NCBI GenBank assembly: GCA_001773385.1
Contig: MEWJ01000046.1
Span: forward strand, 1 to 32,552
Direction: 5' to 3'
Length of the DNA stretch: 32,552 bases
From: a candidate division WWE3 bacterium RIFOXYD1_FULL_43_17
GTDB taxonomy: Bacteria > Patescibacteriota > WWE3 > UBA101185 > UBA10185
The translations under genes were made by a program, and so were the position numbers. The notes under the pieces were generated by a model, which was not told the origin of the DNA, ran no database searches, and saw only the letters and a list, made by a program, of their open reading frames with translations. How positions within the stretch are numbered: the first letter of the stretch is position 1; every line of letters begins with the position of its first letter. Shown one piece after another: positions 1,300-32,552 of the stretch.

Positions 1300-1986
1300 T
1301 TAGTAGTCCTTTTTAGCTATCAGCACAACAAATTCGCCTTTAATTTTTTTATTCAGATATTGGTTGGAAATGTCATTCAAACTGCCCCTTACAACTTCTT
1401 CATACATCTTCGTCAAGTCGTTGCAAACACAAGCCTGCCTATGTCCTAATACTTTTTGGGCAATTTGCATAGACTTGGACAGTCTAAACGGAGATTCATA
1501 AAATATCAAGGTTGCGTCAATGTCAGAATACTTTTCAAAAAACTTTTCTATTTGGACCGCACTTTTTGGTAGAAAACCTACAAATAAGAATTTATCAGTG
1601 GGAAGTCCTGAAACCGACAATGCGGCTGTAACTGCCGAAGGACCGGGAATTGTTTCCAGTTTTAAATTTTCTAAGGCGAGTTCCCTTACCAACTTAAACC
1701 CGGGGTCCGATATCAACGGCGTACCGCTGTCCGAAACGAGGGCTAAAGATTTCCCATTTTTAAGCATATCCTTTATCTGCTCTATTACTCTTGTATGATT
1801 TTGATCCCTGTAGGAAATCTGAGGTTTCGAAAACCCGTACTTCTTTAATAGCTTGTCCGTTTCTCTAGTGTCCTCTGATAATATGAGGTCAACGGACTTT
1901 AGAACCTCTAAAGCGCGGAGGGTTATGTCGGACATATTTCCAATCGGAGTCGATACAATATATAATTTCGAATCGGACATAAACAT
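1300..1986 (-). CDS. rsmI: 16S rRNA (cytidine(1402)-2'-O)-methyltransferase
   Basis: LYIVSTPIGNMSDITLRALEVL, EDTRETDKLL, LVSDSGTPLISDPGFKLVREL, IPGPSAVTAALSVSGLPTDKFLFVGFLP: hallmark RsmI motifs. Start may be the third codon (MSDSKLY...). Confidence 0.95.
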   Translation of the reverse strand: MFMSDSKLYIVSTPIGNMSDITLRALEVLKSVDLILSEDTRETDKLLKKYGFSKPQISYRDQNHTRVIEQIKDMLKNGKSLALVSDSGTPLISDPGFKLVRELALENLKLETIPGPSAVTAALSVSGLPTDKFLFVGFLPKSAVQIEKFFEKYSDIDATLIFYESPFRLSKSMQIAQKVLGHRQACVCNDLTKMYEEVVRGSLNDISNQYLNKKIKGEFVVLIAKKDY

Positions 1987-2004
1987 GGTTCATTTTATCA
2001 CTTT

Positions 2005-3057
2005 ATGGGTCTGAAGACTAAAAACGGCACAATAGAATATCCTGCATTTTTCCCCGACGCGACCCACGCGTGTATAAAAGGTATTTCTTCAGCAGACATC
2101 GTTGCTTCCGGGACTACAGGATTGGTTGTAAACACTTACCACGCTATCGTCGATAAAACCGTAGATACAATAGAAAAGTGCGGCGGCCTACATAAATTTA
2201 TGGGCGTGAAAATGCCTATAATTACCGACTCCGGCGGGTTTCAGGCCATGTCCCTAGTCAGAAGAACTCCCGGTAACGGAAAAATAACAAGAGACGGAAT
2301 TAAATTTAAAATGGACGGTTCAAGGCAAAGTATTACCCTCACACCTGAGAACTGTATACAAACACAGGAAAAGCTCGGGGCTGACATTATGATGTGTCTG
2401 GATGACTGTACCGATCCCGGAGAATCTCAAAAAGAACAGGAACTATCTGTTACCAGAACGGTCGCCTGGGCTAAAAGATGCAAAGACGAGTTCCAAAAAA
2501 TCAAAAAGGATAAACCTTTATTGTTAGCCATTGTACAGGGAGGAAACAGCAAAGAGCTCAGGAAAAAATGTGCGGAAGAACTAATAAAGATAGGTTTCGA
2601 CGGATACGCATATGGAGGGTGGCCGGTTGACGCGAGCGGCGCTTTTTTAGACGAAATCGTAGCTTATACTGCAGAACTGATGCCCGAAGGAATGCCTAAA
2701 TACGCGATGGGCGTGGGAAAGCCGGAAGATATTAAGAAATGTGTGAAAATGGGCTATAACATGTTCGATTGCGTCCTTCCGACCAGAGATGCGAGGCATA
2801 AAAGGCTCTACGTTTTTAATGACAGCGTGGAAAAAGGCTACGAATTTGTATACATGCGGGCTCAAAAACATGAAACCGATATGAATCCCGTTTCAAATTC
2901 CTGCACCTGCGAAGTGTGTTTGGGGCACAGCCGAGCTTACCTTTACCACCTTTTCAAGCAAGGCGACTCTGACGCCGGGCGTCTGGCCACGATACACAAC
3001 CTGACTTTTTACTCAAAACTGATGGCCGAGTTGCGCCAATTGACACTATTGAGATAA
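2005..3057 (+). CDS. tgt: tRNA-guanine transglycosylase (divergent)
   Basis: PIITDSGGFQAMSL, IVQGGNSKELRKKCAEEL, YAMGVGKPEDIKKCVKMGYNMFDCVLPTRDARH, zinc site CTCEVC...H (TIHNLTFY). Confidence 0.9.
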   Translation: MGLKTKNGTIEYPAFFPDATHACIKGISSADIVASGTTGLVVNTYHAIVDKTVDTIEKCGGLHKFMGVKMPIITDSGGFQAMSLVRRTPGNGKITRDGIKFKMDGSRQSITLTPENCIQTQEKLGADIMMCLDDCTDPGESQKEQELSVTRTVAWAKRCKDEFQKIKKDKPLLLAIVQGGNSKELRKKCAEELIKIGFDGYAYGGWPVDASGAFLDEIVAYTAELMPEGMPKYAMGVGKPEDIKKCVKMGYNMFDCVLPTRDARHKRLYVFNDSVEKGYEFVYMRAQKHETDMNPVSNSCTCEVCLGHSRAYLYHLFKQGDSDAGRLATIHNLTFYSKLMAELRQLTLLR

Positions 3058-3087
3058 TAAACAAGGAGAGAAGTTTCCATTTTAAAC

Positions 3088-4494
3088 ATGATTGATAAAG
3101 CTGTTGTCGAAAAAGCAGGGGCACTTGCCCTCAAAATACATGAAGGTAACATCCGTTTATCCGGGGAGGGTTACTATTGGCACCTGCATAGAGTTGCAGA
3201 ACTATTAGAAGAGAACAACGTAAACGATCCAGAGATACTTGCGGGTGCCTATTTACACCACATACTCGACACAAAAAAATATTCGAAAGAAGATCTTAAA
3301 AAGGATTTCGGACCAGAAATTGCTGAAATTGTTACAGAATACCAACGCATATCGGGGAATGAGATAAGCACAATAGACCCGAAAAATTACAACGAAAGTA
3401 TAATCGTCCAAACGTACCTGAATCTGATTAAAAACCCCAAGACGCTAATTATCAGGCTTGCAGATAAGGTCGACAATATAAGGTCGGCGTACGTTCTTCC
3501 TAAAGAGAACGCCAGACGTGTAGCCGAAAAGGCGATGTATCTTTACTCCCCGATCTGCCAACTTTTGGGAATACACAAGTTCGTCGTGGAGCTGGAGAAC
3601 GAAGCGTTTAAAATCTTAAACCCGGGCGAATACTATTCCATCGAGTCCTACCTTAAAAAGAAACTGCCTGAGATGGAGACTGTGCTTGAGGATACTTCCG
3701 AATTTGTGAAGGACATACTCGGGGAAAAAGGAATTTCCGCGAAAATAGATTACAGGATCAAGCACACGTACAGCATCTATAGGAAAGCTCAAAAATACCG
3801 CGAGACAAAAAATTATAAAGGGCTGAATCAAATTTACGATATTGCCGCAATGAGAGTCCTTGTAGACTCAGTAGAACAGTGCTATATGACCGAGGATGTT
3901 CTTAAGCAAGTATGGACAAACGTTCCTGATGAACGCGACGACTACATAATGCATCCGAAACCGAGCGGGTACAGGAGCATACATAATACTTTTGTCGTCA
4001 GTCCTACAATGCATCTCGAAATGCAGGTAAAGACGAAGGACATGCACGAAGAAAATGAGTACGGCATAGCGAGTCATACGTTTTATAAAACAGGCGAACA
4101 ATTAAAGAAAAGTCTTCAGGCGGCCCCGGATTGGCTCACCGACATTAGTTTTATAAAGAACAAAGGCGAAATCAGGATAGACCAGTTTAATAAATACGTG
4201 TATGTATTTACGCCTAAAGGGGATATTAAACAACTGGCGCGGGGAGCAACTCCTATAGATTTTGCCTACAGCATTCACAAGGATCTCGGAAACGCTTGTG
4301 TAGGAGTAACAATAAACGGTGATTTTCAAAAGCTCAGTTATGCACTAAAAGACGGGGATAGGGTAGAGATAAAGACTTTGAAGCACAAAAAACTTCCAAG
4401 TCCCGACTGGCTGGACTTTGTTAAAACGCGCAAAGGGCGCGACGAAATCAGAAAAGCCTTAAGAAAGGGTTCTGAAAGGAAAGAGCTTAGTTAA
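3088..4494 (+). CDS. RelA/SpoT-family (p)ppGpp synthetase with degenerate HD domain, synthetase and TGS domains, no ACT domain
   Basis: Synthetase: RIKHTYSIYRKAQ, IYDIAAMRVLVDSVEQCY, ERDDYIMHPKPSGYRSIHNTF, EMQVKTKDMHEENEYGIASH; TGS: YVFTPKGDIKQLARGATPIDFAYSIHKDLGNACVGVTING; 468 aa, ends after TGS. Confidence 0.92.
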   Translation: MIDKAVVEKAGALALKIHEGNIRLSGEGYYWHLHRVAELLEENNVNDPEILAGAYLHHILDTKKYSKEDLKKDFGPEIAEIVTEYQRISGNEISTIDPKNYNESIIVQTYLNLIKNPKTLIIRLADKVDNIRSAYVLPKENARRVAEKAMYLYSPICQLLGIHKFVVELENEAFKILNPGEYYSIESYLKKKLPEMETVLEDTSEFVKDILGEKGISAKIDYRIKHTYSIYRKAQKYRETKNYKGLNQIYDIAAMRVLVDSVEQCYMTEDVLKQVWTNVPDERDDYIMHPKPSGYRSIHNTFVVSPTMHLEMQVKTKDMHEENEYGIASHTFYKTGEQLKKSLQAAPDWLTDISFIKNKGEIRIDQFNKYVYVFTPKGDIKQLARGATPIDFAYSIHKDLGNACVGVTINGDFQKLSYALKDGDRVEIKTLKHKKLPSPDWLDFVKTRKGRDEIRKALRKGSERKELS

Positions 4495-4506
4495 ACCTAA
4501 AAGAAT

Positions 4507-4683
4507 TTACTTGAGTCTTTGGACTTCTTTGTGAAGAGTGTGCTTCCTAAGTTTGGGATTATATTTCATCAACTCGACCTTATCCGTTGTATTGATACGG
4601 TTTTTCTGGGTTACGTAAGATCTCATACCTGTTTCGGTACACTCAAGACCTACTATTAATCTGTTACCTTTTTTCTTTGCCAT
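4507..4683 (-). CDS. rpmG: 50S ribosomal protein L33
   Basis: Reverse-strand translation [58 protein letters not shown] (58 aa); below the ORF-track length cutoff. Confidence 0.93.
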
Positions 4684-4739
4684 AGGGTGAAATATATTAT
4701 AAAATCAACTAAATTACAACCTTTTTCTAAAAGAAACCT

Positions 4740-7199
4740 ATGGAAAATAAATACGACCATAAAAAAATAGAGGCCAAATGGAAAGAGCATTGGTACAACG
4801 ACAACATTTATGAAGCTGTAGATTTTTCCGAAAAACCTAAGAAATATATTCTTGCAGAACTTCCCTACCCCTCCGGTCCCTATTTACACGCCGGTCATAT
4901 GATGAGATACACCGTGCCCGATGTTTATTCCAGGTATCTGAGAATGAACGGCTTTAACGTTATGTATCCTATGGGCTGGGACGCGTTCGGTCTTCCAACC
5001 GAAGGATATGCCTTAAAGATGGGAAAGACGCCGCAGGAGGTCACTGAAGAGCTCGCAAAAGGCTATAAACAGTCAGCGCAGGCATTCGGCTACGGGATAG
5101 ACTGGAGCCGCGAAATTACAACATCCGACCCTAAGTACTATAAATGGACGCAGTGGCTCTTCCTAAAATTTTTTGAAAACGGGCTTGCAGTACAGGAGGA
5201 GATGCCGGTGTGGTGGTGCAAAGAGCTGGGTGTCCTTGCTGAGGAGGAAGTTCTGACCGGAAAAAACGGCGAGAAGGTAAGCGAACGCGGTTCTCACGCT
5301 GTTGAAAGGAAAATGTTCAGACAATGGGTGCTGAAAATTCCCGAATACGCAGAAAAATTAATAGACGGTCTTAAAGAAACAGATTTTCCGGACTATATTA
5401 AAACGGCCCAGATTAACTGGATCGGAAAATCTATAGGGGCCGAGGTTGAGTTTGAATCTGAAGGAAACTCTATAACGGTTTTCACAACCAGAATCGACAC
5501 CATTTACGGAGCTTCTGCAGTAATCATTTCTCCCGAATACCCGGATTTGTATAACCTGGTGACCGTAGAACAACGTGGGGAAGTTGAAAAATATGTAAAA
5601 GCGGCAAAACAAAAAAGTGAGATGGAACGAACTGCGATACAAAAAGATAAGTCGGGGGTATTTACAGGGTCTTATGTTTTGAATCCGTTTAGCGGAGAAA
5701 AATGCCCAGTCTGGGTGGCCGATTTTGTTCTGACGACCTACGGGACCGGAGCAATAATGTGCGTTCCCGGTCACGATGAAAGAGATCATGAGTTTTCAGT
5801 TAAGTACGGGCTGGAAATAAGACAGGTTGTAAAACCCGTCAATGACGCCCCGGTTGACGTTCTAAAAGAACCGTACACAGGCTACGGAATTTCTTTAAAT
5901 TCAGGTGATTATTCAGGAAAGCCTTCTGAGCAGGTGATAATGGAGATGACTCAGAAAGCTGAAAAAGAAAACTTTGGAAAGTTTAAAATAAATTACAAAC
6001 TCCGGGACTGGGTATTTTCCCGTCAGCGATACTGGGGAGAACCAATTCCGGTTGTTTATAAAACGGACGGCACTTTAGAAGCTGTCGTCGACACAACCGA
6101 CACGCAGGAAGTGCATAAAAAACTTCCCGTTGAACTTCCTTACACAAAAGATTACCAACCTTCCGAAAGCGGAGGTGCCCCTCTTGCAAGATTAACCGAT
6201 TGGGTTGAAACTACCGACAAAAACGGCGCTCCTGCAAAAAGAGAAACAGAGACAATGCCTACATGGGCTGGTTCAAGCTGGTATTACATAAGATACTGTG
6301 ACCCCAAAAATGAGAGTGCTTTCGCAGACCCCGAGATTTTAAAATATTGGCTACCGGTAGACAAATATTTCGGTGACGGCGGACACACTACCGCGCACCT
6401 TTTATATTCCAGATTTTGGCACAGGTTTTTTTACGACCTTGGTTTGGTTCCAACCTCAGAACCGTATAAATGGAGGATGACGGGCGGCCTTTTACTGGGA
6501 GCTGACGGTCAGAAAATGTCTAAGTCCAGGGGAAATGTGATCGACCCTAAAGAACTTGTGGAACAATTTGGAGCGGACGCCTGCAGACTGTATCTCTGCT
6601 TTATCGGACCGTACGATGAAACATACCCATGGGATGATCACGGGGTCAAGGCAACCAAAAGATTTATCGACAATCTCTTTTTGCTAAAAGAAAAAGTAAG
6701 TACTGAGGCCGGGGCAGGTTCGGAATTGGAAAAAGACTACAACTTAATGGTTAAAAAAGTTACGGATATGTGTGAAGGCCTGAAAATGAATACCTGTGTG
6801 AGCGAATTTATGATATTTTCGAACGCCGCTAAAAAAACCTCTTCTATAAGCACAGAACAATGGAAAGGTTACATTAAACTGCTAGCGCCGTTTATTCCTT
6901 TTGTTGCAGAAGACCTCTGGCACGAGATAAATAACTTAACCGGTTGGGATAAAAAGAATAGCGTTCACTTACAGAAATGGCCTAAGTACGACCTTTCTAA
7001 AATATCCGAGAAAACACTCATAATACCTGTGCAGATTAACGGAAAAGTACGCGCTGAGGTAGAAATAGATGCTAACGCCGAAGAATCTACTGTCTCAGAG
7101 CTTGTAAAAAATAATGGCGATGTAGTGAAATCCTTAGACGGACGCCAAATAAAGAAGTTAATCTACATTAAAGGTAAAATCGTCAGTCTGGTCGTTTAG
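4740..7199 (+). CDS. leuS: leucyl-tRNA synthetase
   Basis: PYPSGPYLHAGHMMRY (HIGH region), FTTRIDTIYGASAVIISPEYP and MCVPGHDERDHEF (editing domain), KMSKSRGNVIDP (KMSKS), 819 aa. Confidence 0.97.
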   Translation: MENKYDHKKIEAKWKEHWYNDNIYEAVDFSEKPKKYILAELPYPSGPYLHAGHMMRYTVPDVYSRYLRMNGFNVMYPMGWDAFGLPTEGYALKMGKTPQEVTEELAKGYKQSAQAFGYGIDWSREITTSDPKYYKWTQWLFLKFFENGLAVQEEMPVWWCKELGVLAEEEVLTGKNGEKVSERGSHAVERKMFRQWVLKIPEYAEKLIDGLKETDFPDYIKTAQINWIGKSIGAEVEFESEGNSITVFTTRIDTIYGASAVIISPEYPDLYNLVTVEQRGEVEKYVKAAKQKSEMERTAIQKDKSGVFTGSYVLNPFSGEKCPVWVADFVLTTYGTGAIMCVPGHDERDHEFSVKYGLEIRQVVKPVNDAPVDVLKEPYTGYGISLNSGDYSGKPSEQVIMEMTQKAEKENFGKFKINYKLRDWVFSRQRYWGEPIPVVYKTDGTLEAVVDTTDTQEVHKKLPVELPYTKDYQPSESGGAPLARLTDWVETTDKNGAPAKRETETMPTWAGSSWYYIRYCDPKNESAFADPEILKYWLPVDKYFGDGGHTTAHLLYSRFWHRFFYDLGLVPTSEPYKWRMTGGLLLGADGQKMSKSRGNVIDPKELVEQFGADACRLYLCFIGPYDETYPWDDHGVKATKRFIDNLFLLKEKVSTEAGAGSELEKDYNLMVKKVTDMCEGLKMNTCVSEFMIFSNAAKKTSSISTEQWKGYIKLLAPFIPFVAEDLWHEINNLTGWDKKNSVHLQKWPKYDLSKISEKTLIIPVQINGKVRAEVEIDANAEESTVSELVKNNGDVVKSLDGRQIKKLIYIKGKIVSLVV

Positions 7200-8011: not shown

Positions 8012-8062
8012 AGCGAGATATTATCATTTTTCTCTTGTTAAGAAAACCCCGTAATTCTGGGG

Positions 8063-8068
8063 TATAAT
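8063..8068 (+). promoter_or_regulatory. -10 box TATAAT 7 nt upstream of map ATG (leaderless configuration)
   Basis: ggTATAATggactatATGggc; the hexamer ends at 8068 and ATG begins at 8076. Confidence 0.7.
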
Positions 8069-9949: not shown

Positions 9950-10003
9950 CGGTTGCCCCTTTCAAATGTATTATTTCTTTACGGGTAATATTTGGGTATT
10001 TAA

Positions 10004-12736: not shown

Positions 12737-12865
12737 AAAGCTCCCCCTTTTGTAATCACAGGTGCCCTTTTCGTTAAACAAATACGAAGGAAACCCGAAT
12801 AGTTAAATAGAGTTTAGTTTGGGAAGCAGAAAACGTCAAGAGCAGGTTTTCATTGCTATAAAAAC

Positions 12866-13689: not shown

Positions 13690-14895
13690 TTATTTCGTGA
13701 GAATGATAGCATTGGGCAGACTTCTACCCGGTCCTACAACGTATTTGCCGTTTATATACATAGCAGACGAGCCGCCCCCGTCAAGGTTCAAGGCGTGCTT
13801 TGCCCCCAGTGACCTTATTACGTAAGCCGCGTCTACCACAGTAGCATTGCTTACTATAGCGAGATAGATATTAGAGCCTCCCACTCCTATGACACCTCTC
13901 GGACCTTTAACATCTTTTTGATAAGAAGTAAGCTCGTCCTCGTCCACCACTATGTCTCCGTCTTTTACCAGTGACGGATAGTTGGAGATTCCAGCAGTGA
14001 CTCCCCCGCCGCCGTAGTCAGAGGTTTCCCTGTAAAACGAGGGGTCGCTTCCGTTGAAAGTCATCAGCCCGGTTTCGTTCCAGGAAAGCGCATCTTTGTG
14101 CTCCCACTTTCCCTCGTTGCTATCATACAATGCAAAATCCGAGGAATTTACTTTCCCTCCGCACGTTGAATAATCCGGTGGGCAAAAATATGAACCGTTC
14201 ATTCCGGCAAATCCTCCGCTGTCCTTAACGTAATCGGCAAGGCTCTTAGTATCGCAGTCATTAGTACACGTACCCGATGCAGCTGAAACTGTCTTTACTT
14301 TAATTTCATTCAAGGCTAGTTTAATGACGAATGCGCCGAAAGTGCCTCTTTCGGTCTGAACTGTTTGGTAGCTGTACCCGGACGCAGCTACCCTGGTTTG
14401 TTCCAGTTTTACCAGATAAGCCGAATAGTCCTTGTCCAACAGTGATGTCTGCTCATTTACTCCATTCATTATTGAAGCAAAGTCTTTTTCTATGAGAAAA
14501 TTTCCCCACGAGTCCTTTTGTTCTGTAAGGTCAGGAGATTTTAAACCGGCCTTAACATTTCTATTTATTTTTTGCTCCAGTACTAAAAGAGAATCGTAAA
14601 CATCTTTTATAGTTTTTTCATCGGTCGTTTCTTCTGCTTTCAGTGTCGCCAGCTCTTTTTGCAATGCCGCAACTGTCGCGTCGGACACCATAGAGTTTGT
14701 AACTTTCAGATGATCTTCGAAAAGAGCATCGGAAAAGTTTTGGGTAAAGTTAGTCTGAGACGCTTTTATAGTATTTAGGGATTTTTCGGTATCGTTGAGC
14801 CTAATGTGCTGGTAAACCAGCCACGCGATAGCCACTAAAGGTAAAACCAGTAACCCAACAGACTTTAATAATTTTAAACCGGGCAGGTGTTTCAC
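13690..14895 (-). CDS. Phosphodiester glycosidase (NAGPA/DUF2233) domain protein, membrane anchored with coiled-coil stalk
   Basis: GTG start; GGFAGMNGSYFCPPDYSTC, GVGGSNIYLAIVSNATVVDAAYVIRSLGAKHALNLDGGGSSAMYINGKYVVGPGRSLPNAIIL: NAGPA signature. Confidence 0.9.
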   Translation of the reverse strand: MKHLPGLKLLKSVGLLVLPLVAIAWLVYQHIRLNDTEKSLNTIKASQTNFTQNFSDALFEDHLKVTNSMVSDATVAALQKELATLKAEETTDEKTIKDVYDSLLVLEQKINRNVKAGLKSPDLTEQKDSWGNFLIEKDFASIMNGVNEQTSLLDKDYSAYLVKLEQTRVAASGYSYQTVQTERGTFGAFVIKLALNEIKVKTVSAASGTCTNDCDTKSLADYVKDSGGFAGMNGSYFCPPDYSTCGGKVNSSDFALYDSNEGKWEHKDALSWNETGLMTFNGSDPSFYRETSDYGGGGVTAGISNYPSLVKDGDIVVDEDELTSYQKDVKGPRGVIGVGGSNIYLAIVSNATVVDAAYVIRSLGAKHALNLDGGGSSAMYINGKYVVGPGRSLPNAIILTK

Positions 14896-14917
14896 TTTTT
14901 AAAGTATAGCAATAAAA

Positions 14918-15268
14918 TTAGGACGAAAACACGTTAGTAATAACAACTCCCAGAAATGCCAAACTTATTCCCACGATCTGTGCAGGATTTAACCTCTCCT
15001 GAAATACGAAGTATCCGGCGCCTATAACCACCGCCGCGTAGAAAACTGTCTGCATACTGCCCACCACACTTAAATCCCAGCCTTTCACAAACATCCAGGT
15101 AAAAAGAACAATCTGAACCATATAAAGTAGGACACCCAGCAACAACCATTTATCCGTAATAGCTTCGAGGAAGGTAGCGTGCTGTGCAGCTTTCTTAATA
15201 AATACGTCCCCTATTGCGACCGATACTACGGCGAGAACAACTAATAGAATCTGAAACATTCTTACCAT
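14918..15268 (-). CDS. Small DMT/EamA-like transporter (4 TM)
   Basis: VAIGDVFIKKAAQ, TWMFVKGWDLSVVGSMQTVFYAAVVIGAGYFVFQERLNPAQIVGISLAFLGVVITN. Confidence 0.85.
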   Translation of the reverse strand: MVRMFQILLVVLAVVSVAIGDVFIKKAAQHATFLEAITDKWLLLGVLLYMVQIVLFTWMFVKGWDLSVVGSMQTVFYAAVVIGAGYFVFQERLNPAQIVGISLAFLGVVITNVFSS

Positions 15269-15309
15269 TAGAATAGGATATTCTAAATATTTTGTAAGCG
15301 CAATGAAAC

Positions 15310-15756: not shown

Positions 15757-18700
15757 TTATCTCCTTTGTAAAATAATGTTTTTACTAATATCGGTCGTTG
15801 TGCTGTCTATTTTCACAGTTTCGCTCTGAGCAACGTGTGATTTGGCCGAGTACGACAGTTTATATGTTCCCGGTACCAGATTTTGAATTGAAAAAGCCCC
15901 AGCCGAATCAGTGTAGTAAGTTTTTTTGGAGCGTTTAGCACCATCTTTAATTACTACAATTTTCGCTAAGTACACGGGTGTGCCTGACGAAGAAGTGACA
16001 GTGCCGTGTATTGATCCGGTGACATTGACTTGCGCAAACGTTGTTGCGTTCACGGTAGCACTTGCCGCAGATACATTCCCTGCAGCGTCCCTTGCTTTAA
16101 CGAAATAATAGTAAGTGCTAGACGGGGATCTGGTGGCATCTCCATAGCTTGTAGTTGTAACCGTAGCAACCTTGACATTATCTCTGTATACCTCGTACGA
16201 AGAAACTGCCACATTATCAGTTGATGCCGACCAGCCCAGATTAATTTGAGTGGAAGACACTGCTGTTGCAACTGGATTGGCAGGTACACTTGGGGCGGTA
16301 GCATCCGGTGCCGCTGATGTACTGGCACTCACAGTACTAGATGCAGCTGAAACATTTCCTGCAGCGTCCCTCGCTCTAACATAAAAGGTGTAAGCAGTAA
16401 ACGGGGTTAGCCCCGTATTGCTGTAAGTCAACGATGTTACTGTCGCGACCTTTATATTGTTGCGGTACACATCGTAACCTGTAACGCCCACGTTGTCAGT
16501 GGAAGCTGTCCAGACCAAGTTGACTTGTGTTGATGTTATTAAAGCAACATTTAGAGTAGGAGGCGCCGTCGGAGCTGAGGTATCTGCACCAGCCTGTGTT
16601 GTGGCACTTACAGTATTTGAGGCTGCAGAAACGTTGGAAGCGGCATCAATTGCCTTCACATAGAAACTGTATGTTGTTGAAGATGAAAGCCCGGTGTTGC
16701 TGTAAGAAGTAGCGGTTACGGTGGCTACTTTAACGTTATTTCTATAAACCTCATAGCCTGTAACACCGACGTTATCGGTAGAGGCTGACCAGGATAAGTT
16801 AATTTGTGTGGCTGACACTACAGAAGCTGTAAGGTTTGCCGGTGTGCTCGGTGCTGAGGTGTCGGCTACTGTTAACGTTGTTGCAGTTGCAGTGTTTGAT
16901 GCTGCTGAGTAGTTAGATGCTGCATCAAAAGCTTTCACATAAAATGAATATGATGTTGAAGAAGTCAACCCGCTATTGTTGTATGAGGTCGATGTTACGG
17001 TCGCCACCTTAACGTTATTTCTGTATACCTCGTAGCCTGTAACTCCGACATTATCCGTGGAAGCGGACCAGCTCAAATTAATCTGCGAGGAAGATGCGGC
17101 TGTTGCGGCGAGATTTGACGGCACACTTGGGGGTGTTGTGTCGGATACCGGGGGTGGGGGCGGGTTAGTTACGCCCGATGCCGTTATAGAAAAGGTATCA
17201 GTAAAAGGTGTTGTCGAAGCATTATCAACATAGGTAGAAGTAATTCCGGTCGGCGCCACAGTAAATTTCGAGAAACCGTACGCGACGTCATTTGTTGATG
17301 CAAAAAATATATTGTGCACGTCGGATGAAGATATGGCGTAGTGTCCTATTCCTCCCGCTCCGTTAATAAAAAGTACCGTTCCTAAACCTTTCTTATAATT
17401 CGGGCCAGCCCCGCCTTGTGTGCTTGGAACTATACAGGCGGTGTTTGCGGCAGACGAGTTAGAGCTCGATATCGATGAACATGAAGGGTTTAGATACAGC
17501 TGCTTACCTCTTTCGTAGTTATGCTCGTGTCCGTGCATAAGTAAATCGGGTCTTTTTTTCATAATAAGCTGGAAGAAATCAGGTCCCACTTCATCCCCCT
17601 TAATACCGGTGCTTAGATACGTTTCGTGACTTGAAACAATTATCCATTTGCGTCCTAATACACGTGCTTCGTCAATTCTATCTGCAAGCCAGTTATACCT
17701 CTCGTTACCTACGGTAAATGTAAATAAACCGCCGTACAAAAAGTTCATTTTCGGATCGACCATGATAAACCTTGTTGTAGGATTCTCTAAAGGAAAGTCG
17801 AAATAAAACTCTTTTCCATAATTATCGGTTCCGGTAGGAGATCCGCCGGTACCAAGGTTGGGAGATTGAACAGAATTCAACCTGTCAGGTAGACATGTGG
17901 CATCTACAAAGTAATCTATTACACCGTTTCCGGGATTATCTACACCGTTCTCGTGGCCACCGGCGATGACTGTGAAAGGTTTACTACCCCAGTTAGGTTT
18001 AACATATTCGTTGCACCAGTTATATTCGTTTTTTCCCGAAGGCAATTGATAAGATAAATCTCCGAGTGACAAATAGAAATCAGCCCCCGATGCTCCAGCC
18101 TTCTTAAATGCTGTAGAACCGGCGCTGCCATAACCGTGGTCTCCTGCCGCAGCAAAAGAGTAAGTCTGTCCTGCGGGAGCTCCTGTCGCTCCGTACTCAA
18201 AAGCTCCTATATCCATGGTGGATGCAGGAACATTTGCTCCGTCCAGGTCCGTTGAATATCCTCCGTTATCACTGGTGCCCCCATTTACAGCGGGACTACC
18301 GGATTTCAGGTGCATATCTATAACCGAAGTGTAGGTGTCCTCTACAGTGGCAAACTGCGGGTCGGCGACCCTGGAAGATCCGTTTACGCTATATGAGGTT
18401 GGTTCAGGAGTTTTATTAAAAATGTTATTGGACTCGACAAATGTAGTTCCACCAAAGTACGCGGATTTCTGTCCTCCAGAAAAAATATTGTTTTTTATTG
18501 TGAAAACCGGAGTGGTAGACGTATTACAGTTACCGGCGCATACAAAAGCCTGTGCGGACGAGCCGGTTAAATAAACTGTGTTGTTATAAAAAGAGGAGTT
18601 AAGTACGGGTCCGTAGTTGTCTCCCGCTCCTCTGGTAACGAAGCCTTTGCCATAAGCAAGTTTTGCAACTATAAGATTGTAACCAAATTTATTGTCGGAA

Positions 18701-19629: not shown

Positions 19630-19660
19630 ATTGTATTCCTAAAACGGGGATATGTGTCAA
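19630..19660 (-). promoter_or_regulatory. Promoter of the 1288-aa gene: TTGACA-N19-TACAAT, 6 nt before ATG
   Basis: Minus strand TTGACACATATCCCCGTTTTAGGAATACAATAATAGTATG. Confidence 0.65.
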
Positions 19661-19709
19661 CGATTGATTAAACACAAGCGGAAATAGCGTGTATAATGAC
19701 AAATTGTCT

Positions 19710-23075: not shown

Positions 23076-23112
23076 GGGACAAAGACGTTTTATACTCTTT
23101 GTTCCTTTTTTT
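23076..23112 (+). terminator. Intrinsic terminator (plus strand)
   Basis: GGGACAAAG (23076-23084) ... CTTTGTTCC (23097-23105) followed by TTTTTTT. Confidence 0.78.
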
Positions 23113-24619
23113 AATTCTTTTTATCTCTGCTGCCTGCAACCCTGTATATTTTTACGACAGTCTCTCCCTCCTCATTTTCAATTTCGTGCACAGTATGCTT
23201 ATTTTTAATTTGTGGAAAACTATAATCAGTAGCGAACGTTTGCGGTCTTTTAATACCGATAGCGTAGAAGTCAGCATCGGACTTAAATTCCGTATCCATA
23301 TAGTATTTAGCAATCTGAGGGTATTCGTTTGTGTAGTATCCGAACTTCTCATTGCTCAACTTGTTCTGGTCGTTAACCCATTTGTTTATCTCCGCCCACT
23401 TCCTGCTATGCGTAAACCCGGACTTATGTCTAAAATTGTTCTCATCGCCATACTTAGGTGTCGGTAAAAATAAGATTTTCTCCTGCTCAAACGGATACTC
23501 TTTTTTGTGGTCTACATATATTACATAACTTTGGATGAACAAGAAAAGAAAAATCAGTCCTACAATGAGGGCAAAGTACCGCGACAGATGTTTGATAAGA
23601 AAATAGAAACCATAAGAGACAAGAATGACCAATGGATAAAAATAATTGTAAAAATGAAGTCCGGAGTAAGAAACAGCAACTTTAAAAAGAACAAGTACGA
23701 GTAAAAACCAGACTACCGGCATGTAGATTTTCTTTTTTAATAAGTAGACCGCTCCAACTAAACCGCCGATAGTATACAGATAGAGGGTAAGAAAAGGGTT
23801 ATATAAATTGAACTGAGCTGCATCCCCGTGTTTTAAAAATGGATTTGTAAAGCCTAATATTTTGTCCGCATAGTCAGTATTAAACTCCGGATGTGTCTGC
23901 ATATACTGAAAGTAAGGAATATAAAAAGGAGCAAGAATACCGGCGCCGATAATAAGGTTTAATAAAGTAACACCCAGCTTATACCGTAAGGTGTAGTTTC
24001 TATTCAATAAAAAACTTCCATAGAAAAACGCGATGGGAATAAGGATAAAGGCCGCGAACCAATGAGCGTAGAGTGATAAGCACAGCAGAATTGTCCCCAT
24101 CAAACTGCTCTTAACCACATTTTCAGGTTTTTTCCATAAATCCACGTAAAAATATAAAGCCGCAAAAGATAAGAAGAAGTTTAAGTTTTGGTACTGAGCT
24201 ATTCTCCCGTATGCAACTATCAGTCCGTTTACACTAAATAAAAATGCACTAAAAAATGCTATCAAATAATTTCCGGAGAGTTTTTTTACAAACGCATAGA
24301 ATACGTATACAGCACAGAAGCTAAATAGAGCAAAAGGAAGTCTCTGAGCAAATTCGTTGCCGTAGCTGTTACCGTTTAAAGTGTACGGGATGTAACCAAC
24401 CAAAAGCTGTAAAGGACCTTTTCTTTGGCTTAAGGTAAACTCCCACATACTCATTCCGGGATCTTTTTTACCTCCGCGGTAAAAAAAAGTACCCGGCTCA
24501 TCGGATATATAATCTGAGTATCCTAAATTCACAAAACGTAATACGAAACTTGCGGTGAGCAACAAAACTATGAGAATTATTTCAACGTGTATGCCCCGCT
24601 GCCTCAGTACCTTAAACAT
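23111..24619 (-). CDS. GT39/ArnT-like membrane glycosyltransferase
   Basis: N-terminal NLGYSDYISDEPGTFFYR (acidic first-loop motif), many TM segments, soluble C-terminal tail. Confidence 0.82.
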   Translation of the reverse strand: MFKVLRQRGIHVEIILIVLLLTASFVLRFVNLGYSDYISDEPGTFFYRGGKKDPGMSMWEFTLSQRKGPLQLLVGYIPYTLNGNSYGNEFAQRLPFALFSFCAVYVFYAFVKKLSGNYLIAFFSAFLFSVNGLIVAYGRIAQYQNLNFFLSFAALYFYVDLWKKPENVVKSSLMGTILLCLSLYAHWFAAFILIPIAFFYGSFLLNRNYTLRYKLGVTLLNLIIGAGILAPFYIPYFQYMQTHPEFNTDYADKILGFTNPFLKHGDAAQFNLYNPFLTLYLYTIGGLVGAVYLLKKKIYMPVVWFLLVLVLFKVAVSYSGLHFYNYFYPLVILVSYGFYFLIKHLSRYFALIVGLIFLFLFIQSYVIYVDHKKEYPFEQEKILFLPTPKYGDENNFRHKSGFTHSRKWAEINKWVNDQNKLSNEKFGYYTNEYPQIAKYYMDTEFKSDADFYAIGIKRPQTFATDYSFPQIKNKHTVHEIENEEGETVVKIYRVAGSRDKKN

Positions 24620-24650
24620 GAGTTAAGTTTAACACCCGAAAAGGCTATTC

Positions 24651-26138
24651 TTAAAAATACTCTGCCTGATAGACGTGTACCCAAATATCCTTAGAAAACT
24701 GCCTTTTTTCTAATTTTGTATAGTGGGTATCCAGGTACGTTTTTACCATATCGGACCCATTAAGGTTCATCGTGATAAGCAAAAACATTCTTTGATGCCC
24801 TTTTTGCAGCATCTGCGCGTCCTCCTCCACCTTTTGAAGCGTGGTCTCAGGAATGCCGCCTTTCTTTTTATTCCACATAGGAAGGCTTGAAACTCTCGAG
24901 TTTCCGCTATAGTAATATTGGAAAGGATATAAAGTGTAGGCCGGACTTATGACCACGATGTCTCTGGGGGTTGTATTTTGCTCTATATAAGAAACCGCAT
25001 CCCGGTAATTTTCACGTGCGGGATTAGCGCTGCTTGTAAACTGAGTAAACAACGCTACAACAAATAAAAAAACCGTTGCTCCCGTTAATATATATCTCGT
25101 TTTTCCTACCAGCTCATTCAAATACCACGCAAGTAAAACAAAAAATAATGGGGTCGCCGTAGTTAAATATCTCGTAAGATACATGGGTCTGTAAACGAGA
25201 CTGACAAAAAACACTAAAAAGACCGGAAAAACAGTCCCTAATACTACTAAATTAAATCCCGTAGAAAATGGTGTACGTCTTTTAGTCAAAAATACAAATC
25301 CGAATAAAATTACGAGCGGCCAAAAAGAAATTAATGAGCTGCTTACCATTTCCGGCTGGAATCCGAAAGTAAATTCAAAAAAGCTTAATATCACATTAAA
25401 TGCAGTAGGCTTTTGTAGCACGGGCGCCAAAGATCCGGAGCCATAAGATTTTATAACTGCCAGTAGCCACGGTAAAAATATCAACGCCAATACAAACCCT
25501 GAGAGTAGCATAGAAACCAGCTGCTTTTTCTTATTATAGGCAACGCCGCCCTCCCATTCCTTGTTAATTGTTAGCAGATAAAATATTCCCTGAACTGCCA
25601 ACACCAAAAAGAAAAAATAGTGTGTGTACATACCGACGGCGTTTACTAAAATATACAGCACATAATGAATAAGCTTATTCTCTTTCATAATCTTTACGTA
25701 GAAAAGGTAAGAGAGTGTTGTTACCAGCGTAAGAAGCGTATACATCCTAATTTCCCGGCTATACCAAACCCAGAACGGCGATATTGCTGCAAAAAGCAAG
25801 GCAAGTAAAGCGGGCCTTTTTCCTATCAGCTCCTTTGCAAGAAAGTATAGGGCAGGAAGAGCCAGTATTCCGGGTATGACAGCCAGCAACCTTACTCCGG
25901 CCTCACCGCTCCCAAAATATGTCATCCAATAATGTAATAACGTGTTATGTAAAGGAAGGTGAACATTCTTCAACATGTACTCTTTTATAAAGCCGGTTGA
26001 GTGGGATGCCTGCCAAACGCTTTGGGTTTCGTCCAAACGTAAACTGTCTGAGTCCAGATTTATCAACCGCACCAGTGATCCTAAAATCAATGTTGCGCAG
26101 ACTAAAGTAATATAAATTCTATTTTCTCTTTTCTTCAT
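24651..26138 (-). CDS. GT39-family membrane glycosyltransferase
   Basis: LDSDSLRLDETQSVWQASHS, HLPLHNTLLHYWMTYFGSGEAGVRLLAVIPGILALPALYFLAKEL, FWVWYSREIRMYTLL; start probably MKKREN (26138). Confidence 0.87.
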   Translation of the reverse strand: MKKRENRIYITLVCATLILGSLVRLINLDSDSLRLDETQSVWQASHSTGFIKEYMLKNVHLPLHNTLLHYWMTYFGSGEAGVRLLAVIPGILALPALYFLAKELIGKRPALLALLFAAISPFWVWYSREIRMYTLLTLVTTLSYLFYVKIMKENKLIHYVLYILVNAVGMYTHYFFFLVLAVQGIFYLLTINKEWEGGVAYNKKKQLVSMLLSGFVLALIFLPWLLAVIKSYGSGSLAPVLQKPTAFNVILSFFEFTFGFQPEMVSSSLISFWPLVILFGFVFLTKRRTPFSTGFNLVVLGTVFPVFLVFFVSLVYRPMYLTRYLTTATPLFFVLLAWYLNELVGKTRYILTGATVFLFVVALFTQFTSSANPARENYRDAVSYIEQNTTPRDIVVISPAYTLYPFQYYYSGNSRVSSLPMWNKKKGGIPETTLQKVEEDAQMLQKGHQRMFLLITMNLNGSDMVKTYLDTHYTKLEKRQFSKDIWVHVYQAEYF

Positions 26139-27783
26139 ATACGGCACTTTTCTCGTGCACATCTGAATTTGCTACCACAGTTGCGGTGTTATTGGTGACT
26201 ATCAGGTTGGTAGCGGGGAGCTCTGTTCCGCTCAAAAATCTAAGGTTTAAAGATTTTAATTTTGACAGGCTTTTTATTAAAAGCAGTTTCCAGGGATACG
26301 CCACGCGTACAAACCCGAAGAAAAAGGCGATGTTAAAAATTATCCAGGACGCATTTGTAAGGATAGAAGGCACAAAACCATTTTTAGCAAAAGCGTAAAT
26401 TATAGCTGCTACGCCTAAAGCCGCATACGCTAGATGAGGGATTACAAGAAACAAGAAGTTGCCGGTCTCTTCGGACTTTGAAGTAATGTTAAATTTTGCT
26501 TTAACCCCAAATATTGTTGATAAAACTGCTTTTATAAATACGTAAAAAGAGCTTACCGAAAGTTGTATTGCTCTGTAAGTTACAGTATTCTCTGTTGAGA
26601 GCATTAACAAATGAAGCGTGGAAAATATAAACGGGAAAAAATACAACATAAAGTCGCTGGTACCCGCCTTAACCGGGAGAGCTCCGGAAAACAGAACATA
26701 AATTGGTATCAGGGCGTCAATTAAAATAACAAAACCATTAAGATAATAGCTCGAAGAATATAGGTACTGGATTTTTTGTCCCCAGGTTAAACCGCGGCTA
26801 AATATTGGATTATGTTTAAACATAATTTCAGAAGACCCTCTTGCCCAACGGAATTGCTGTAGAACGTAGTTACCTAAATTATGCGGAGCTAAACCTTCTG
26901 CGAGTACTTTCGGAACGTAAACAGATTTCCAACCCTTCTCGTGCATTTTTAATGATGCTAAAAAGTCCTCAGCAATATTATCTTCCGGTATACCGTCAAT
27001 ACTTTCTAAAGCGGTTCTTCTGATAACAGCGTTAGTACCGCACCAAAAAGTTGCATTAAGCCTGTTTTTACCACGGCAGATGGGTCCGAAGAATAACTCC
27101 TGCTGCTCCCAAGCGGCCTGTGTTAGAAAACTGTTTCCCGAATTTGAGTAATACTGGGGCGTTTGAACAACTGCCATTTTCTCATCCGTAAAATACGACA
27201 TTACGCGTAATAAAAAATCTTTATAAGGTCTGTGGTCAGCATCAAAAACTGCGAAAAACGGAGCAGTAGTCTGTCTGAGTGCGTGGTTAATATTTCCTGC
27301 CTTGGCACCGTAATTATTTTCCCGGGTTATAGGAATAGCTCCGTATTTTGCTGCTATTTCGTTAATTTCTCTCCAACCCGGCAAATTTCTGGACATCCCG
27401 TCATTTAATACAAATACTTTGTAGTTTTTGTACCGCATTGATGTTGCAGCTTTAATGGTCTTTTCTACAATTTCCGGCGGTTCTCCGCAAACGGTGATAA
27501 AAACGTCTACCGGAGGCTGTCTCTTTCTCGTAGAAATTATTTTAGATAAAGGTCTGCGTTGGTCCCATATCGTGTAAACGTATCCAAGAGCCTGCCAGAC
27601 ATGGTAAATTTCTCCTATTACAAGTAAGGAGTACAGAAAAAAGTTTCCTGCGTTACTAAAATCCAGCCACCACGTAAAGTAGAAAAGAATCGCCAGGCTG
27701 GTTAGGATCATGAAGGGCTTGGATACTTCCACATCCGAATATATTGTTTCGTACGATGTTTTTAGTTTCTTTGGCAGCGTCAC
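26119..27783 (-). CDS. Cellulose-synthase-like family 2 glycosyltransferase (BcsA-like, no PilZ)
   Basis: PPVDVFITVCGEPPEIVEKTIKAA, FVLNDGMS, FDADHRP, FWCGTNAVIRRTAL, IAEDFLASLKMHEKGWKSVYV, QQFRWARGSSEIM: D, DxD, TED-like, QxxRW motifs; GTGA overlap with upstream gene. Confidence 0.93.
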   Translation of the reverse strand: MTLPKKLKTSYETIYSDVEVSKPFMILTSLAILFYFTWWLDFSNAGNFFLYSLLVIGEIYHVWQALGYVYTIWDQRRPLSKIISTRKRQPPVDVFITVCGEPPEIVEKTIKAATSMRYKNYKVFVLNDGMSRNLPGWREINEIAAKYGAIPITRENNYGAKAGNINHALRQTTAPFFAVFDADHRPYKDFLLRVMSYFTDEKMAVVQTPQYYSNSGNSFLTQAAWEQQELFFGPICRGKNRLNATFWCGTNAVIRRTALESIDGIPEDNIAEDFLASLKMHEKGWKSVYVPKVLAEGLAPHNLGNYVLQQFRWARGSSEIMFKHNPIFSRGLTWGQKIQYLYSSSYYLNGFVILIDALIPIYVLFSGALPVKAGTSDFMLYFFPFIFSTLHLLMLSTENTVTYRAIQLSVSSFYVFIKAVLSTIFGVKAKFNITSKSEETGNFLFLVIPHLAYAALGVAAIIYAFAKNGFVPSILTNASWIIFNIAFFFGFVRVAYPWKLLLIKSLSKLKSLNLRFLSGTELPATNLIVTNNTATVVANSDVHEKSAVYEEKRK

Positions 27784-29048: not shown

Positions 29049-29154
29049 AAAAAAACTATAGAAAGTCTCAAATCGAACCCTTTTTATAGTCTTATGGGAT
29101 TATACACAAATATAGATGGATATCAATATTTAATTTGCGGGTAGGGAGAGAGGG

Positions 29155-29210: not shown

Positions 29211-29227
29211 AAAAAATCTAATTGTTA

Positions 29228-29533: not shown

Positions 29534-29588
29534 AGGGTCATTAATCAGTTTGGGCCATTTTGCGCACTTCTTGGTAAACTGTTTAGAT

Positions 29589-29927
29589 ATGCGCTCAAAA
29601 AAGCACTACCTTGAGAATAAGGAAGCCGCCAGAAAAATAATACTGGAAAATCTAGACTTTTTCGCAAAACTTTACGGCGTTAAATACCGAAAAGTTGCCA
29701 TAAGGAATCAAAAGTCTAAATGGGGAAGTTGTTCTAAAGCAAGAAACTTGAATTTTAACTACAAGGTGGCTCTCTTACCAAAAGATCAAAGAGATTACAT
29801 TATAGTTCACGAACTTTGCCACTTGATTGAGTTTAATCATTCCAATAAGTTTTGGGCTGAGGTGGAAAAAACAATTCCGGGCTATAAAGCAATTAGGAAA
29901 AAGGTTAAGTCTGTTAGTTTACGTTAG
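29589..29927 (+). CDS. YgjP-like (DUF45) zinc metallopeptidase-domain protein
   Basis: NQKSKWGSCSKARNLNFNYKVALLPKDQRDYIIVHELCHLIEFNHSNKFWAEVEK: HExxH + YgjP context; start at 29589 follows a -10-like TAAACT by 8 nt. Confidence 0.9.
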   Translation: MRSKKHYLENKEAARKIILENLDFFAKLYGVKYRKVAIRNQKSKWGSCSKARNLNFNYKVALLPKDQRDYIIVHELCHLIEFNHSNKFWAEVEKTIPGYKAIRKKVKSVSLR

Positions 29928-29943
29928 TGTTTTTGAATTTTTA

Positions 29944-30020
29944 TGGGGTGGTGTACGGGAGTCGAACCCGCTAAAACTGCCTCCACAGGGCAGCGCCTAA
30001 GCCGTTCGGCACACACCACC
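29944..30020 (-). tRNA. tRNA-His (anticodon GTG), encoded G-1 and CCA
   Basis: Reverse complement G|GTGGTGT...CTGCC-CTGTGGA-GGCAG...GCGGG-TTCGACT-CCCGT-ACACCAC-C-CCA; acceptor and T stems pair. Confidence 0.92.
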
Positions 30021-30094
30021 ATAAAAGTCAAAAAGATTATATCATCCGCGGGCTTAAAAAGCTTGCAGTGTCGTATAAACAGACCAGCTGCGGC

Positions 30095-31516
30095 CTAATT
30101 AGTCCTCAAATACTTCCAATTCTCAAAATCCAAAAACCTGTCTGCGTAAGTAAAGGTATATTTCTCCCCCACTCCCTCTATATACTTAGAAACGTAAAAA
30201 TTAGTGAACGGATGATACAAAAACACTGCAGGAACCTGCTCAACAATAACTTTTTGGAACTCGTTGTAGTGAATCATCCTTTTTTCATTGTCCAGCTCAT
30301 TTCTACCTTCTTCCAACGCTCTGTCCGCCCTGACCTGGTCAAATCCTGAGAAATTAAGTCCCGGAGGATTTTTCTGAGCAGAGTGCCACAACACATACCG
30401 GTCGGGGTCTCGGCCAACCTCTTGTCCAAACAACAAAACCTCAAAATCCCTCGGTTCAATAATTCTCGAAACTATATCATTGGAAGCAATAGGTTCTACT
30501 TCGACTTCTATATCCAATCTTTCCCGCCAAACCGAAGCTATTTGTTTTGCCATAATTACGTGTTCTTCTATGTCCGGGACCCTTATAGTCAGCGTCATTT
30601 CTCCCAAATCTTCCGAAAAAAGAGGATCGAAACGGTCAAACTCCAGCTCTAAATCAGTGAAAACACTTCTGCTGATAGGTCCCTGAACGCGGATTCCCTG
30701 TCCGGCAGTAAAGCTTTCAAGAGGAATTACCTTCTCCAGCTTCTGTCTTACGGCAACGTCCGACAACTTCTCACTCCTTACATTAAAAAATAAAGCGTAG
30801 TAAATTCCCTGAACGGGAAATTCGTAGTTATAAAAGTTCTCGGGTGACTTTTTTTCAGATAAAAGATAGCCGTTAATTTCACCGAGTTTAGCGGCCGTTA
30901 ATATCTCATCTTCGTTCGAGTAATACCTAAAACTTATTTTTTGGATGTCGTATTTTTTGTTGGGGGAGACAAGCGTTATCTGCCTTATATACCTTCCCGA
31001 TTTTTCTATTCTCGCAATTCTAAAATCCCCACTAGTAATAGGACTAAGAGGATCGCTATTTTCTTCAGAGTTTTGCGGCATAATTCCCACAGTTAACAGG
31101 CTCAAAAAAGGAGAGTACTTGTTTGGTAAGGTGTACCTCACAGTCAAATCGTCAACTTTGTCGGTTGCTACTCCCGAAAGGTCCGCAACCTTAAATGAGG
31201 TGTATATAAGATCGTCGGAATTAATTTCTTTTCCGTTTGTCCAATACTGATTATCCTTAAGCCTTATTGTGTACACCAGGCCGTCGTCGGATACCTGCCA
31301 GGTTTCAGCCAAATCAGGAACCGTCGTACCATAAATATCGTATTTAAAAAGACCTCTGTACAGTAACGAACTAATTGTTTTGTCCGTCTGCTGAACTATC
31401 TGGCTGGGAAAAAAGGTTTGAGGTTGTCCCAACATCCCTTCGTTGTAACTAACCCCGGGTAAAAGTGCGGCAAAAAACGTGTAAATATAAAGGTAAAGTG
31501 TCGTTAATATGGCCAT
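30095..31516 (-). CDS. SBP_bac_5-family ABC transporter substrate-binding-like protein
   Basis: SSLLYRGLFKYDIYGTTVPDLAETWQVSDDGLVYTIRLKDNQYWTNGKEINSDDLIYTSFKV ... DPDRYVLWHSAQKNPPGLNFSGFDQVRADRALEEGRNELDNEKRMIHYNEFQKVIVEQVPAVFLYHP. Confidence 0.92.
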   Translation of the reverse strand: MAILTTLYLYIYTFFAALLPGVSYNEGMLGQPQTFFPSQIVQQTDKTISSLLYRGLFKYDIYGTTVPDLAETWQVSDDGLVYTIRLKDNQYWTNGKEINSDDLIYTSFKVADLSGVATDKVDDLTVRYTLPNKYSPFLSLLTVGIMPQNSEENSDPLSPITSGDFRIARIEKSGRYIRQITLVSPNKKYDIQKISFRYYSNEDEILTAAKLGEINGYLLSEKKSPENFYNYEFPVQGIYYALFFNVRSEKLSDVAVRQKLEKVIPLESFTAGQGIRVQGPISRSVFTDLELEFDRFDPLFSEDLGEMTLTIRVPDIEEHVIMAKQIASVWRERLDIEVEVEPIASNDIVSRIIEPRDFEVLLFGQEVGRDPDRYVLWHSAQKNPPGLNFSGFDQVRADRALEEGRNELDNEKRMIHYNEFQKVIVEQVPAVFLYHPFTNFYVSKYIEGVGEKYTFTYADRFLDFENWKYLRTN

Positions 31517-31684
31517 TCCGACTTATTTTACCACTATTTTATGGGCCGGGACGGTTTGAGGTTGTTTTGGCTCCTAGCGTTGATATCACAAACCAAGTGC
31601 CGTTTTGTTGCCAAACGCATGCTTTTGTTGATAATATACCGTTGTGCCTTGTGTTAACGACGGGAACTGTCCCCTCGAAACCCT

Positions 31685-31759
31685 GGCCCCATCGTCTAAC
31701 GGTTAGGACGCCGGGTTTTCATCCCGGCAACCGGGGTTCGATTCCCCGTGGGGTCACCA
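31685..31759 (+). tRNA. tRNA-Glu (anticodon TTC), CCA encoded
   Basis: GGCCCCATCGTCTAACGGTTAGGACGCCGGGTTTTCATCCCGGCAACCGGGGTTCGATTCCCCGTGGGGTCACCA. Confidence 0.96.
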
Positions 31760-31773
31760 GAAAAAAGACCGGA

Positions 31774-31801
31774 AGTCCGCAGGATTTGCGGGCTTTTTTT
31801 T
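31774..31801 (+). terminator. Intrinsic terminator downstream of tRNA-Glu
   Basis: AGTCCGCA-ggatt-TGCGGGCT followed by TTTTTTT. Confidence 0.8.
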
Positions 31802-31927
31802 GTGATTCTCGCCAGGGAACGGACTAACTTTAGATGTGTTCGACCATTCTGCGAGCGAAGCGAGTGGAATTGCTTTGACTAAAACCATTGCGTAATGAAG
31901 TGAAGCAACCGCTTTGGCGGAGTCAAA

Positions 31928-31946
31928 ATTCCCCGTGGGGTCACCA
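31928..31946 (+). repeat. 19-bp exact direct repeat of tRNA-Glu 3' end (31741-31759)
   Basis: ATTCCCCGTGGGGTCACCA occurs at 31741-31759 and 31928-31946; flanks diverge immediately on both sides. Confidence 0.93.
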
Positions 31947-32015
31947 TACTATTTATATATTTGGTCTAAAAAAACACTAGCAACATATGTCAAAAATAAG
32001 GTAAAATTTTAGTGC

Positions 32016-32552
32016 ATGGAAGCCATTAATCAACTGCGCCTGAGAACAAATTTCCAGGTTATACAAAAGATAAAAAGTGTTGTTGCAGCTGCGTTTAGAG
32101 ATAAGAAAAAGCGCCGGATAATAATTCTAGTAACACTTGGTGTTTTAATTCCTGTAACAATATTCTCAGTTCTTGAAGCAACACGTGTTAAAGCTGACTG
32201 GTTTGACGACTCATACAACCAAAGGCAGAAGGTAAGCTACTCCCATACTTCAGACATATCCGCCGAAAGAAGAATATCAATAACTGTAAACACACAGGCT
32301 TTAATTGCTGACGGGAAAATGCAAACAGATTGCGATGACACGATATTTACCACAATCGGAGGAAAGCTTTTAAAATATACCCTTGTTTCCGGGTGTAACA
32401 CAACAACAACCGTATATGACGTTGTTGTGGATAGCGTCACAAACGGTGGAAATAACATTTTTATGTACTACTCAAATCCAATAGCTCATTCAACAATAGA
32501 CGGAGCTGTTTCCTCAGTAACCGGTCTTACCCCAAACGGTGCTCCAAGTGTT
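32016..32552 (+). CDS. Membrane-anchored surface protein, possibly DUF2341-like, truncated by right edge
   Basis: ATG 32016: MEAINQLRLRTNFQVIQKIKSVVAAAFRDKKKRRIIILVTLGVLIPVTIFSVLEATRVKADWFDDSYNQRQKVSYSHTSDISAERRISITVNTQALIADGKMQTDCDD...; open to the window end; TAAAAT box 8 nt upstream of ATG. Confidence 0.78.
   Translation, partial: MEAINQLRLRTNFQVIQKIKSVVAAAFRDKKKRRIIILVTLGVLIPVTIFSVLEATRVKADWFDDSYNQRQKVSYSHTSDISAERRISITVNTQALIADGKMQTDCDDTIFTTIGGKLLKYTLVSGCNTTTTVYDVVVDSVTNGGNNIFMYYSNPIAHSTIDGAVSSVTGLTPNGAPSV

Follow-up and report, generated by a model that had tools for sequence, protein, structure and literature searches.

Start-Adjacent −10 Boxes Point to Leaderless Expression of a Minority of Genes in a WWE3 Bacterium

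Several genes on a 32,552-nucleotide (nt) stretch of DNA from the candidate division WWE3 bacterium RIFOXYD1_FULL_43_17 (contig MEWJ01000046.1, here C46; the whole stretch is referred to as the window) have a −10-like hexamer almost directly before their start codons. This arrangement raises the question of whether their transcripts begin at the start codon itself, leaving no room for a Shine-Dalgarno (SD) sequence. A first-pass annotation listed 13 such hexamer-spacing-start combinations and proposed two initiation modes, leaderless for first genes and SD-dependent for some others. Our analyses make it very probable that a sizeable minority of genes, amounting to at least 20–35% of those that open a transcription unit, is expressed as leaderless or near-leaderless mRNAs, with SD-directed initiation elsewhere. 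The window belongs to an 863-kb genome in 59 contigs (93.6% complete, about 42% GC). Bacteria of the candidate phyla radiation (CPR) are not known to have the ribosomal protein uL30 and frequently carry 16S rRNA insertions. Besides having a small genome, the host lacks uL30 (TIGR01308), which was absent from all 37 genomes searched, this one included, although the same search detects it in E. coli, B. subtilis, and others. Matches to 16S rRNA stretch over 2.4–3 kb in three relatives (G011, G030, and G031), consistent with large gene insertions. The host is thus apparently a member of the Patescibacteria (CPR); in a RarA tree, branches were long and the window was not placed.

Promoter counts were made on ~390 kb of the genome, sampled as stretches (45% of the total, 340 genes), using longest open reading frame (ORF) starts picked without regard to upstream sequence; spacing is the number of nt between the last hexamer base and the start codon. 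Strict −10 hexamers form one peak, at spacing 6, where they precede 23 of 178 lead genes compared with 1.7 per position at spacings 15–55 (~14-fold above background); there is a modest rise at spacings 7, 8, and 9 (7, 6, and 5 matches). The controls comprised shifted positions, internal start codons, shuffled sequences, and 200 kb of E. coli K-12 run through the identical pipeline. A strict hexamer at spacing 6 precedes 0.17% of 4,216 internal start codons, and no spacing-6 peak is present among the 98 E. coli lead genes. For lead genes, blind motif discovery by expectation-maximization (EM) recovered TATAAT at spacing 6 (log-likelihood gain 84, versus 22–30 for shuffled sequences), and a blind 8-column search of operon-internal genes returned AGGA at SD distance. 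ATG is the start codon in 85 of 97 spacing-6 cases, and GTG leaderless starts also occur.

The listed promoters could in principle be an artefact of AT-rich intergenic DNA and post hoc start choice, given that the hexamers were chosen by eye, spacings of 5–12 were accepted, and three spacing-12 cases fall outside the peak. All 13 combinations were, however, found before open frames by exact string search, and held-out scoring supports 11 of them. Starts were scored with a model that distinguishes three classes (leaderless −10, SD, and none) and was fitted to 20 genome stretches, the window being excluded. A log-likelihood ratio (LLR) above 1 counted as a leaderless call; of 13 further starts in the window, 2 reached it, as did 2.5% of the 4,048 internal start codons that lie in frame. 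For the main peak, which is seen with unrefined starts yet disappears at shifted positions, at internal start codons, and in the E. coli sample, an artefact is refuted by these controls and has practically no chance of being the explanation; it may still apply to rarA and rsmI.

The hexamer lies at the position of a ribosome-binding site and is mutually exclusive with SD motifs, and could on those grounds be read as an AT-rich non-SD ribosome-binding signal, in the style of Bacteroidota or of S1-binding leaders, with no promoter function. Its sequence context argues otherwise. TGn precedes the −10 box in 43 of 134 confident leaderless-class genes, where 7 would be expected, and in 211 of 573 (about 5% expected) when summed over nine genomes of the class, i.e. 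this genome and eight relatives. An unguided search for the −35 element settled on the adjacent TG and was replaced by a spacer scan, in which TTGACA-like hexamers (at least 5/6 matches) peak at a 17-bp spacer (24 versus 0–9 at other spacers). Across the same nine genomes, a pyrimidine occupies position −1 in 80% of 293 spacing-6 starts. A purine occupies the seventh position past the box in 80% of spacing-8 and 72% of spacing-9 starts, predicting leaders of 2–3 nt, and no such bias was found at spacing 7 in the nine genomes. The pattern is as if RNA polymerase chose between two start positions according to spacing. Partner elements at promoter distances, spacing sharp to one base, and initiator bases at +1 would have no role in ribosome binding, and a Bacteroidota-type signal would be expected to have neither partner elements nor sharp spacing; the motif is, moreover, commoner at divergent and lead genes. 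The TGn extension, the TTGACA-like box, and the initiator bases together exclude a simple AT-rich ribosome-binding signal, leaving that reading highly improbable, and identify the motif, as judged from its sequence, as a σ70-type promoter.

Among refined lead starts, 38% have a strong −10 score at spacings 6–8, versus 5–7% at shifted positions; with longest-ORF starts the corresponding figures are 28% and 8%. From this spacing-specific excess we estimate that 20–35% of lead genes would be leaderless; the earlier description of the architecture as pervasive was therefore overstated, the demonstrable share of lead genes lying roughly between one fifth and one third. Leaderless calls are more frequent at lead genes (69/210, 33%) than at operon-internal starts (20/109, 18%; Fisher p = 0.006), whereas the converse difference in SD tetramers is weak (37/210, 18%, versus 28/109, 26%; p = 0.11). 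Leaderless calls are most frequent (41%) at starts separated from a preceding co-directional gene by a gap of 25–49 nt. Three features of a leaderless architecture are observed, namely a −10 motif at fixed distance, a coexisting SD motif, and a preference for first or single genes; for a fourth, a transcript that would begin on or very near the start codon, the initiator bases offer indirect support.

The proposal of two initiation modes is supported. The anti-SD sequence CACCTCCTTT is intact in same-genus 16S rRNA; an S1-domain protein and IF3 were found in this genome and bS21 in three same-genus genomes, and the translation machinery looks ordinary. SD-like AGGA motifs exist and are depleted at −10-led starts (2.2% versus 9.6%, and 1.5% versus 12.4%), a depletion that for SD tetramers persists outside the −10 footprint. 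This depletion bears on another interpretation, in which the boxes are real but minor or secondary promoters and the main transcripts begin upstream with conventional leaders. Such an arrangement would fit the −10-like hexamers that also occur 28–50 nt upstream of some genes, and sequence alone cannot tell promoter strength. However, as leaderless-class starts rarely have an SD motif, ribosomes would find no signal on a leadered transcript, and it is the start-adjacent box that is conserved.

A same-genus genome, in which spacing-6 hexamers precede 33 of 262 lead genes compared with a background of 2.2, yielded 180 ortholog pairs with a median identity of 85%. Of these, 65 are leaderless-class in both genomes with the same start, 63 of them also with the same spacing. 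Across 34 pairs with spacing 6, identity is 100% at four of the −10 columns and 94–97% at the remaining two, compared with 65–79% over columns −28 to −21, although the box values are inflated by selection of the pairs as leaderless in both genomes. For 115 start-aligned pairs of any class, identity rises from ~0.70–0.77 upstream to 0.84–0.89 over −12 to −7. Orthologs from other genera, families, and the wider class tend to keep their assignment (51 leaderless/leaderless, 6 leaderless/SD, 6 SD/leaderless, 11 SD/SD; p = 2e-5). We consider it improbable that the boxes are only secondary promoters.

The preferred reading is leaderless or near-leaderless expression from a σ70-type promoter, whose −10 is frequently extended (TGn) and in some cases accompanied by a TTGACA-like −35 at 17 bp. 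At spacing 6 the seventh base after the −10, the normal +1, would be the A of the start codon, and at spacings 7–9 the +1 would fall 0–3 nt upstream of it. Translation of such mRNAs would begin at the 5′-terminal start codon without an SD sequence, and other genes, more often operon-internal, would use an SD helix with the intact anti-SD and standard ribosomes. What the DNA shows is the arrangement itself, with its fixed spacing, promoter character, conservation, and SD avoidance; where the transcripts begin and how ribosomes enter them is inferred.

Several points weigh against this reading or against parts of the first-pass proposal. Start codons are predicted throughout. Spacing 12, with 2 matches versus a background of about 1.7 among lead genes in the 390 kb, is at background, which places rpmG, rarA, and typA outside the peak and leaves their listing as leaderless unsupported. 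The held-out model does not support the named starts of rarA and rsmI, the latter at spacing 5. Two genes listed as lead genes, NAGPA and the gene starting at 24619, lie 22–31 nt behind a co-directional gene and do not qualify as lead genes by that distance. The division into leaderless lead genes and SD-led internal genes is a tendency, not a rule: a −10 peak confined to lead genes had been predicted, and the spacing-6 peak is indeed found there, but the leaderless signal also occurs at the 20 internal starts noted above. Class switches occur between some orthologs, six in each direction. The 16S rRNA gene was not found in this assembly, and the anti-SD was therefore inferred from the same genus. 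Finally, the mixture model assigns 20–30% 'leaderless' to null controls (shifted positions and E. coli), and its fitted weight (48%) was dropped as a measure of the leaderless fraction.

The window elements are collected in the table below. Pfam backs most of the gene names given in the first-pass annotation.

Predicted promoters and SD sites in the window (hexamer-spacing-start; LLR from the held-out model, support above 1)
Gene	Element	Position	Strand	Start	Held-out model	Remark
rsmI	TGa-TAAAAT (hexamer 1992–1997)	1992–2000	−	ATG 1986 (spacing 5) or 1980 (spacing 11)	LLR negative at 1986	
rpmG	TATAAT-12-ATG	4696–4701	−	4683	1.76	
SIMPL/DUF541	TGa-TAATAT-6-ATG	8018–8026	−	8011		Overlaps first-pass GATAAT-8
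map	TATAAT-7-ATG	8063–8068	+	8076	3.95	
rarA	TAATAT-12-ATG	9986–9991	+	10004	−1.36, unsupported	
Small gene upstream of Y-family polymerase	SD GGGGGAG	12741–12747	−	12736	Class SD	
NAGPA	TGc-TATACT-7-GTG	14903–14911	−	14895	2.88	
EamA-like	TATCCT-6-ATG	15275–15280	−	15268	2.51	Not on first-pass list
Cupredoxin	SD AAAGGAG	15761–15767	−	ATG 15753	Class SD	7 nt before ATG; kept in same-genus genome
1288-aa gene	TACAAT-6-ATG	19630–19635	−	19623	3.42	TTGACA upstream
typA	TATAAT-12-ATG	19692–19697	+	19710	1.34	
502-aa gene (first-pass 'GT39')	TGt-TAAACT-6-ATG	24626–24634	−	24619	3.25	
GH8	TATAGT-6-GTG	29055–29060	−	29048	2.58	
YgjP-like	TGg-TAAACT-8-ATG	29572–29580	+	29589	Supported	
SBP_bac_5	TGg-TAAAAT-8-ATG	31525–31533	−	31516	Supported	
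Right-edge gene	TAAAAT-8-ATG	32002–32007	+	32016	2.28	

The two SD sites cited for contrast, before the cupredoxin gene and the partner of the Y-family polymerase, are present. The highest LLR among the window starts tested is that of map, for which the ATG of the longer ORF (8067) overlaps its own −10 box (TATAATG); the true start is likely the downstream ATG, and longest-ORF annotation would be wrong for map and probably for similar genes. The SIMPL promoter, previously read as GATAAT-8, is better read in the extended −10 form, which is kept in the same-genus ortholog (TGa-TAACAT-6-ATG); a family ortholog is also leaderless-class with spacing 6. For YgjP-like, box and spacing are unchanged in the same-genus genome and a class ortholog is also leaderless-class with spacing 8; the SBP_bac_5 promoter is identical in the same-genus genome. 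The placement of the rsmI promoter relative to its start is uncertain, although TGn-TAAAAT is kept in the same-genus genome. The rpmG promoter, at a spacing without genome-wide enrichment, would be short-leader rather than leaderless, and typA, for which box and spacing are both kept in the same-genus genome, is likewise predicted to be of the short-leader type. The diverging rpmG and leuS genes share a short AT-rich region (4683–4740) in which the minus-strand TATAAT overlaps TTATAAAAT on the plus strand, possibly forming a bidirectional promoter.

NAGPA starts 22 nt behind the co-directional EamA-like gene and keeps TGcTATAAT-7-GTG in the same-genus genome, where the flanks have diverged. 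The 502-aa gene lies 31 nt behind a co-directional PMT_2 gene; the GT39 label given to it (23111–24619) did not hold, as it has no Pfam match and the PMT_2/GT39-like gene is its upstream neighbour at 24651–26162. Like the 25–49 nt gaps described above, both gaps would offer room for a promoter without a leader. Complete predicted leaderless promoters lie in or just before them (14895–14918 and 24619–24651, minus strand), and with promoters in such short gaps, what look like operons may consist of successive single transcription units.

Beyond the genus, the spacing-6 peak is clear in all four other-genus genomes of the family sampled and in most class genomes, is weak or absent in two (G034 and G028), and varies across the phylum. 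In a crude search of 145 phylum genomes that ignored gene context, and in which a spacing-16 control took the place of a reversed-pattern control, TAWAAT-6-ATG occurred 6,867 times compared with 4,655 for TAWAAT-16-ATG; 45 genomes were individually significant (p < 0.01), and one deviated in the opposite direction. Very strong excesses (spacing 6/16: G147, 151/27; G162, 68/12; G091, 45/8; G176, 51/13) suggest that leaderless expression may be dominant in these lineages. Three genomes (G051, G090, and G054) have no excess or a deficit, and in G051 and G090, which belong to one family (f19), the trait was possibly lost. That leaderless expression is widespread and possibly ancestral across the Patescibacteria, and dominant in some lineages, is in our view an evenly balanced proposition.

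Similar architectures are established in other bacteria. The 'TA-led' leaderless genes described in many bacteria (Zheng et al., 2011; BMC Genomics 12:361, PMC3160421) share a −10-like TAtaaT motif centred about 12 bp upstream of starts, a TG enrichment ahead of the box in certain low-GC genomes, coexisting SD genes, and a preference for operon-proximal genes; that survey covered 2010 RefSeq genomes, and the parts consulted contain no mention of Patescibacteria or CPR and gave no match for TM7. In Deinococcus-Thermus, a −10 motif adjoining about 30% (one third) of ORFs was shown experimentally (Zhong et al., 2025; PMC12340547). The architecture there matches the present one, with a −10-like and a GGAG motif and with errors in annotated start codons. 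The motif there is TANNNT and experimentally tested, whereas here, in a different phylum and from sequence only, it is a complete TATAAT, often preceded by TGn and in some cases accompanied by a −35 element. The leaderless bacterial class of GeneMarkS-2, which according to the passage citing it in PMC9581028 comprises 21.6% of bacterial species, and the mycobacteria likewise combine leaderless and SD genes in one genome with GTG and ATG starts; the present genome differs in being reduced (about 0.86 Mb), uncultured, 42% GC, and ATG-dominated. Our literature search found no report of leaderless transcription in Patescibacteria, although such reports may exist beyond its reach, and its predicted occurrence there would be the new part of these findings.

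A large share of bacterial diversity belongs to the Patescibacteria, whose ribosomes are reduced and of which few have been cultured. Should between a fifth and a third of the transcription units in this group be leaderless, gene-start annotation would change, and a phylum-wide leaderless mode would call for its systematic correction. Absent SD sites would be explained without an exotic ribosome, and promoters and start sites could be located in uncultured genomes by a simple rule. It would also become testable whether leaderless initiation is an ancestral trait or arose through genome compaction.

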